NCBI GenBank assembly: GCA_020351305.1 | Contig: CP070730.1 | Coordinates: forward strand, 362,474-408,610 | DNA: 46,137 nucleotides | Source: Candidatus Bathyarchaeota archaeon | GTDB lineage: Archaea; Thermoproteota; Bathyarchaeia; Bathyarchaeales; SOJC01 | Direction: 5' to 3' | In this document: positions 7,483 through 46,126 of the stretch, piece after piece | How the letters are laid out: each line of letters opens with the position of its first letter | How positions within the stretch are numbered: the stretch's first letter is position 1 | The notes under the pieces: generated by a model | Database searches by the model: none | What the model was told of the DNA's origin: nothing | Seen by the model: only the letters and a program-made list of their open reading frames with translations | Program-made: the position numbers and the translations under genes

Positions 7483-7557
7483 GGGCCGATAGTTCAGCCT
7501 GGAATGAATGCCTGACTTGCACTCAGGAGGCCGCGGGTTCAAATCCCGCTCGGTCCA
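7483..7557 (+). tRNA. tRNA-Ala (anticodon TGC)
   Basis: A complete 75-base cloverleaf. The acceptor stem GGGCCGA pairs with TCGGTCC and includes the G3-U70 wobble pair that identifies tRNA-Ala. The anticodon stem CCTGA/TCAGG encloses loop CTTGCAC with anticodon TGC. The T arm is GCGGG-TTCAAAT-CCCGC and the discriminator is A at 7557. The 3' CCA is not encoded. No intron is present. A TATA-like ATACATAAAG at about 7440-7450 could be its promoter. Confidence 0.97.
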
Positions 7558-45053: not shown

Positions 45054-45227
45054 GGCTATACCCTTAAGCTCTATTCAGCGTCTGATCTAATAAGCACGCG
45101 ATAGATTGTCAGCAATGTATTATGTCCACTAGCCTTGGGGTTTTTTGAGAGATTTTATTAGAATATATTATCAAGTTTAGAATGTCGGCTTTAATTCACG
45201 CCGCGCCAATTCAGGGAGGTGAATGAT

Positions 45228-45518
45228 TTGGATAAATATGAGCAGAATTTGCAGAAGATGATTAAAATGGGCGAGGAAGAGAGAATGAAGGCTATTGAGA
45301 CTAAGAAAGAGATTTGCGTTTGTGGCGGCTGCCCTAGCTACAATGACTGCGCTAGAGAGAAGAAGGAGTTGCTGTATTGCGCCCTTGGTAAAAGTGCGAC
45401 CTGTATAACGGATGAAGCTGGTTGCATTTGTCCAAATTGCCCAGTAACTGAGCAGATGGGGCTTACACATGACTATTTCTGCACTAAAGGCAGCGAAAGA
45501 GAACAACGAGGGATGTAA
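45228..45518 (+). CDS. DUF2769-type cysteine-rich small protein
   Basis: A 96-residue protein with a basic, charged N-terminus (about 30 residues) and a Cys-rich core matching DUF2769: CVCGGCPSYNDC, then CALGKSATC and CICPNCPVTEQMG, and a final FCTKGSE. The eight or more cysteines suggest iron-sulfur or zinc binding. The TTG at 45228 follows a full SD GGAGGTGA; GTG at 45219 overlaps that site and is less likely. Function unknown. Confidence 0.82.
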   Translation: MDKYEQNLQKMIKMGEEERMKAIETKKEICVCGGCPSYNDCAREKKELLYCALGKSATCITDEAGCICPNCPVTEQMGLTHDYFCTKGSEREQRGM

Positions 45519-45625: not shown

Positions 45626-45733
45626 TGGTGCGGCGGGCCGGATTCGAACCGGCGAACCCCTACGGGAAAGGATCTTGAGTCCTTCGCCTTTAGTCAACAA
45701 ACATTGCTTTTGACCTGGCTCGGCTACCGCCGC
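45626..45733 (-). tRNA. tRNA-Leu (anticodon CAA) with a 20-base D-loop insertion
   Basis: Minus-strand class II tRNA. Acceptor GCGGCGG/CCGCCGC; anticodon stem AAGGA/TCCTT around loop CTCAAGA with anticodon CAA; a long variable arm CCC-GTA-GGG; T arm GCCGG-TTCGAAT-CCGGC. The 3' CCA is encoded (45626-45628). The D arm starts GCCGAGCC and should run GGTCAAAGGC, but 20 extra bases (about 45692-45711, ambiguous by up to three) lie in its loop. Without them the size, about 85 before CCA, is normal. A minus-strand TATA-like CTTAAAT lies at about 45760. The insert may be a non-canonical intron. Confidence 0.9.
45692..45711 (-). other. Putative intron in the D loop of tRNA-Leu
   Basis: Removing these 20 bases restores the normal archaeal tRNA-Leu D loop GGTCAAAGGCG. 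The junction bases AAA repeat on both sides, so the exact ends are uncertain. Inside the precursor, GTCAA (just upstream) can pair with TTGAC in the insert; I could not draw a classic bulge-helix-bulge motif by eye. Confidence 0.65.
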
Positions 45734-45840
45734 CCAACCGAAAACTAGCAACCCTAGAAAATTTAAGGCTTGCCAACACAGCCTTACCAGAACTGGGTGG
45801 CTGTCAATGATAAACGCAGAATACAGGGTCTTCATAAAGC

Positions 45841-45849: not shown

Positions 45850-45886
45850 GTGAGACTGAGTGTCATATTCACTAGGAGTTACCAAC

Positions 45887-46126
45887 GTGAGCAGTTTAGA
45901 ACCAAGCAGAAAGCCCTTAAATGTGTTAGTAAAGCAACTAAATAACCATGTCACAATAACACTCAAAAACGGCATCACTTACAAGGGCACCATGACGAAA
46001 TGTGACGGGCATATGAACATCATTTTGGAAGGAGCTACTGAGTGCAAAGGTGATAGTCTAATCGCCAATTATGGCAGTGTCTTGGTAAGGGGAAACAACA
46101 TACTCTATATCTCTATCGAAAAATAA
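45887..46126 (+). CDS. Sm-like (Lsm) archaeal RNA-binding protein
   Basis: A 79-residue archaeal Lsm protein that forms heptameric rings binding U-rich RNA. The Sm1 motif runs from about residue 9 to 45 (VLVKQLNNHVTITLKNGITY and DGHMNIIL) and Sm2 appears as GSVLVRGNNILYISI at the end. GTG at 45887 is chosen from SD AGGAGTT; a GTG at 45860 would add nine residues and lacks an SD. The gene ends just inside the window edge. Confidence 0.95.
   Translation: MSSLEPSRKPLNVLVKQLNNHVTITLKNGITYKGTMTKCDGHMNIILEGATECKGDSLIANYGSVLVRGNNILYISIEK

Follow-up and report, generated by a model that had tools for sequence, protein, structure and literature searches.

Non-canonical tRNA introns have been described in archaea at positions 20/21, 22/23 and other sites (PMC4090602), and they occur also in Thaumarchaeota and other lineages (PMC3218864). 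Canonical archaeal tRNA introns at 37/38 use the same splicing signal and the same enzyme as the intron analysed here, but they lie in the anticodon loop rather than in the D arm. The described D-arm introns are short (11-129 nt), form a bulge-helix-bulge (BHB) or a relaxed BHB motif and contain a 4-bp helix and two 3-nt bulges, with the 5' strand of the central helix in the exon (PMC4090602). Outside Thermoproteales, D-arm introns are known from the intron-rich Candidatus Caldiarchaeum subterraneum of the Aigarchaeota, for which the multi-intron genes named include tRNA-Leu(UAA) but not tRNA-Leu(CAA) (PMC3293823). Frequent non-canonical introns in a recently described lineage are also a feature of the Asgard Atabeyarchaeia and Freyarchaeia, where 92-95% of the tRNA genes contain introns (PMC11291895); in the genome studied here, they are present in a minority of the 41 tRNA genes detected.

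The tRNA-Leu(CAA) gene of a Bathyarchaeota archaeon (class Bathyarchaeia) almost certainly contains a protein-spliced BHB intron in its D arm, at positions 21/22. Its small size, the 4-bp helix and the two 3-nt bulges are those of the D-arm introns in PMC4090602, whereas the host lineage, the position and the isoacceptor differ. Within the open-licence literature examined, neither the 21/22 position in combination with Leu(CAA) nor a paper on tRNA introns in Bathyarchaeia or Methanomassiliicoccales was found. The range extension beyond Thermoproteales that the earlier note had expected is modest, since D-arm introns had already been reported outside this order, as in Caldiarchaeum. The comparisons below point to a well-supported new instance of a kind already known, the excision of which we infer.

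The gene lies on the minus strand at the end of a window of 46,137 nucleotides, which is the whole stretch of DNA that was analysed, within a genome of 1.87 Mb (Table 1). The Rfam tRNA model RF00005 recognizes the unspliced gene with 50.3 bits (cut-off 29), and the D-loop stretch comprises 28 nt, compared with 4 in the model. ARAGORN reports only a tRNA-Ala at 7483 in the window and misses the unspliced Leu(CAA) gene, which is called as tRNA-Leu(caa) after 20 nt have been taken out. This confirms, together with an intron-less homologue described below, the observation of the earlier note that the D loop contains 20 extra bases, the removal of which restores a normal tRNA. The gene is present in a single copy, and no other Leu(CAA) gene was found in the host genome. 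Thus, a tRNA gene that is missed by a common gene finder appears to be intact, and its predicted splice sites are now fixed. A gene for an Lsm (Sm-like) protein (45884-46126, +) is located divergently to the tRNA gene, and a DUF2769 gene (45219-45518, +) is the other neighbour; neither was found within about 1.5 kb of the tRNA gene in other genera.

Table 1. Features of the intron-containing tRNA-Leu(CAA) gene, in window coordinates
Feature	Position	Strand	Basis
tRNA-Leu(CAA) gene with intron, 105 nt (85 nt spliced)	45629..45733	-	Rfam RF00005, ARAGORN
5' exon, 24 nt, ending in CCAGGTCAA	45710..45733	-	Little or no variation among 12 family orthologues; BHB phase
Intron AAGCAATGTTTGTTGACTAA, 20 nt	45690..45709	-	Length and sequence vary among relatives (12-22 nt); absent in G004
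3' exon, 61 nt, starting with AGGCGAAGG	45629..45689	-	Conserved across all orthologues
Anticodon CAA, without intron at 37/38	45675..45677	-	ARAGORN on the spliced gene
CCA end, genomically encoded	45626..45628	-	Sequence reading; part of ARAGORN's spliced gene
Putative TATA-like box TTAAATTTT, 25-33 nt before the mature 5' end	45758..45766	-	Sequence reading
BHB central helix, 5' strand GGUC, in exon	45712..45715	-	Pairs with 45692-45695; 44/44 in family; pairing probability at least 0.97
BHB central helix, 3' strand GACU, in intron	45692..45695	-	GACU/GGCU/GGCC/GACC/GAUU in relatives, each pairs with GGUC
5' bulge AA^A, expected cut 45710/45709	45709..45711	-	BHB position; constant exon end GGTCAA
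3' bulge AA^A, expected cut 45690/45689	45689..45691	-	BHB position; constant exon start AGGC
Inner intron hairpin AGCAA-UGU-UUGUU, 5 bp	45696..45708	-	BHB conformer; not the minimum-energy pairing if folded alone

The insert is located at the boundary between D loop and D stem. Because a run of A residues flanks it (GTC-AAAA...GACT-AAA-GGC), it can be slid by up to 3 nt, and its phase is fixed only by the symmetry of the BHB and by comparison with relatives, in which the exon ends GGTCAA and AGGC are constant. Both place it at 45709-45690, two bases away from 45692-45711 as given in the earlier note, which had recognized the same insert in a different phase. A cut after GGTC, as the latter coordinates imply, was rejected as it would alter A21 in relatives that read ...AG|AGGC, ...AT|AGGC or ...AC|AGGC, while the GGTCAA|AGGC phase yields an identical mature D loop in all of them. 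In an unbiased scan over all pairs of cuts in the gene, the 20-nt intron ranks first. It interrupts the mature tRNA sequence between nucleotides 24 and 25, which are positions 21 and 22 in standard numbering.

Within the family, 12 of 13 genomes, which represent nine of the ten genera, have an insert at this site. Gene order around the relatives' tRNA genes is not conserved within 1.5 kb, and orthology therefore rests on the tRNA sequence itself: the exons of the 12 family orthologues are identical to those of the window at 81-85 of 85 positions (95-100% across genera). In contrast to the exons, the inserts range from 12 to 22 nt, have unrelated loops and vary freely in their middle. The thirteenth genome, G004, contains an intron-less gene, and its D arm, GCCGAGCCAGGTCAAAGGC, is identical to that predicted to result from splicing. 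As the insert recurs at one point in so many genomes and genera, these alignments indicate that it is neither a chance event nor a sequencing error, and the first alternative of the earlier note, a non-canonical intron in an unusual place, gains strong support.

A clear BHB, which the earlier note had not been able to draw, can be formed by the precursor: GGUC-AA^A-[AGCAA UGU UUGUU]-GACU-AA^A, with a central helix of 4 bp flanked by two 3-nt bulges on opposite strands and an inner helix of 5 bp. The outer helix GCC:GGC has 3 bp and one extra A on its 5' side; the hBHBh' definition asks for at least 2 bp in each of the two flanking helices. Placing the bulges on the other side of the central helix gave no BHB, and only the canonical layout with the 5' strand in the exon fits. 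Across the 11 distinct introns of the family, all 44 central-helix positions are paired, even though the intron strand occurs in five versions. The pairing totals, those of the family and those of the other lineages given below, were not attained in any of 20,000 shuffles, a contrast that is inflated by the relatedness of the sequences. With just 1-2 base pairs in the inner helix, several introns of the family correspond to the relaxed form of the motif and not to the strict one. When the precursor is folded alone, an extended helix in which the 5' bulge is paired is favoured by 2.2 kcal/mol (-44.0 versus -41.8), but the central helix retains a probability of 0.97-1.0; for one Methanomassiliicoccales precursor, the minimum-energy fold is the exact BHB.

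The insert, the conserved BHB, the homologue that equals the predicted product and the genes for a splicing endonuclease are established by computation and together support the intron. In the proposed pathway, the gene would be transcribed and the D-loop GGUC of the precursor, which includes G18 and G19, would base-pair with the GACU that lies close to the intron's 3' end, generating a 4-bp helix between two 3-nt bulges. A heteromeric EndA would cut both bulges, presumably at the exact bonds predicted, and a tRNA ligase, which we take to be of the RtcB type, would join the exons to a normal tRNA-Leu(CAA).

The mature tRNA might instead retain the insert, which would then form an additional hairpin within an enlarged D loop; the stable folding of the lone strand, with a hairpin at this site, would agree with this (z = -3.07 versus shuffles). 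G18 and G19 normally contact the T loop, and both would be consumed by this hairpin. In addition, a plain D loop is found in one genome of the family and in 15 further Bathyarchaeia genomes, and the conservation of the bulges at the cut sites contrasts with the free variation of the insert, as would be expected for a sequence that is removed. We consider retention very improbable, and excision of an intron remains our preferred explanation.

The earlier note had suggested that processing may require an endonuclease of another specificity. The host genome encodes two EndA-type proteins (PF01974), one of alpha and one of beta type. The catalytic subunit matches EndA of A. pernix (3p1z, E = 3.6e-43) and contains the Y/H/K triad, and its IPKPK sequence aligns with K44-P45-R46 of the Crenarchaea-specific loop in A. 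pernix. The second subunit lacks the catalytic His, a residue that is replaced in all eight beta subunits examined. These features place the enzyme, as far as can be predicted from its sequence, in the heteromeric (alpha-beta)2 type with the Crenarchaea-specific loop. The lysine in this loop is reported to provide EndA with a broad substrate range (PMC6379350, PMC12397907). The IPKPK loop is present in all 12 alpha subunits of the family; G004 is among them, and the idea that its missing intron is tied to the loss of the loop was dismissed on the basis of this alignment. The pairing of the 5' bulge in the free-energy minimum and the relatives without a proper inner helix could speak for a special enzyme. 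Nonetheless, the central helix with its two 3-nt bulges matches the standard substrate, and with an EndA pair that carries the broad-range loop, no unusual endonuclease would be needed; we regard its involvement as highly improbable. That the gene is a broken copy, as the earlier note had also considered, or that the insert is an assembly error is hardly conceivable: ARAGORN's failure on the unspliced gene is compatible with either, but this is the sole Leu(CAA) gene found in the genome, all other parts of the tRNA are intact, its exons are conserved between genera, and the insert recurs in independently assembled genomes, single-contig ones among them.

Among 257 Bathyarchaeia genomes searched with the exact pattern, at least 23 contain the intron form and at least 16 an intron-less D loop, both being lower bounds. 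The remaining genomes match neither of the strict patterns, and partial matches suggest that many of them carry an intron further downstream. In GTDB genomes, Methanomassiliicoccales, Brockarchaeota and Asgard archaea have BHB introns at the same site, as do other Bathyarchaeia. The introns of Methanomassiliicoccales and their Euryarchaeota relatives (L094, L097, L099, L103, L104, L107, L108, L114, L117, L118, L124, L127, L130 and L131) are textbook BHB introns of 22-28 nt at the identical tRNA-Leu(CAA) site. All 56 central-helix positions of these 14 introns are paired, and the inner helices covary, changing in sequence while pairing is kept. Pairing is found at 23 of 24 positions in six introns from Asgard archaea, Brockarchaeota and one further archaeon, and at 31 of 40 in ten introns from other Bathyarchaeia. 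The outermost pair is mismatched in five of the latter ten, and the JdFR-07 sequence misfits at the 21/22 phase. Three matches of the GTDB scan were false: in L109 and L110, the motif lies upstream of an intact tRNA, and L133 is a Chloroflexota record that is not a tRNA-Leu(CAA). An apparent second insert downstream of the anticodon, in the anticodon stem or the variable arm, accompanies the D-loop insert in the tRNA-Leu(CAA) genes L102, L105, L111 and L115 (Asgard) and L119 (Bathyarchaeota JdFR-07).

The identical insertion point and the same pairing exon strand, GGUC, recur in Bathyarchaeia, Methanomassiliicoccales, Brockarchaeota and several Asgard lineages. A site common to such distant archaeal phyla offers a compact test case for weighing an ancient origin of non-canonical tRNA introns against repeated gain. 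The 21/22 intron of tRNA-Leu(CAA) could be one old intron that was present in the common ancestor of several archaeal phyla or could mark a preferred landing site that was reused repeatedly, and its persistence may not be due to chance alone, as it might, for example, guide the modification of the D arm; we rate this proposal as rather unlikely.

Further non-canonical introns were observed in the same host genome (coordinates in G000:C1). tRNA-Leu(TAA) (700020-700135, +; L091) contains a 25-nt D-loop intron, GGTCTAA^atatgg...aggacat^GGGGG, and is matched by ARAGORN only once this intron is removed. D-stem introns are present in tRNA-Lys(TTT) (around 96520-96575, -; L089), with 16 nt and a 4-bp BHB helix, and in tRNA-Glu(TTC) (963639-963697, +; L087), with 18 nt near position 10/11. 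In tRNA-Asn(GTT) (1531934-1532035, +), a 28-nt intron with a 4-bp BHB helix lies on the 5' side of the anticodon, and two tRNA-Met(CAT) genes (591872-591974, +, and 1423884-1423979, -) contain variable-region introns of 28 and 21 nt, respectively, likewise with 4-bp BHB helices. Splicing models restore the tRNAs for Leu(TAA), Glu(TTC), Lys(TTT) and Asn and both tRNA-Met. The same is probably true for tRNA-Asp(GTC) (1042764-1042869, +; L083), which has a D-loop insert of 29-31 nt and for which the best model is less certain.
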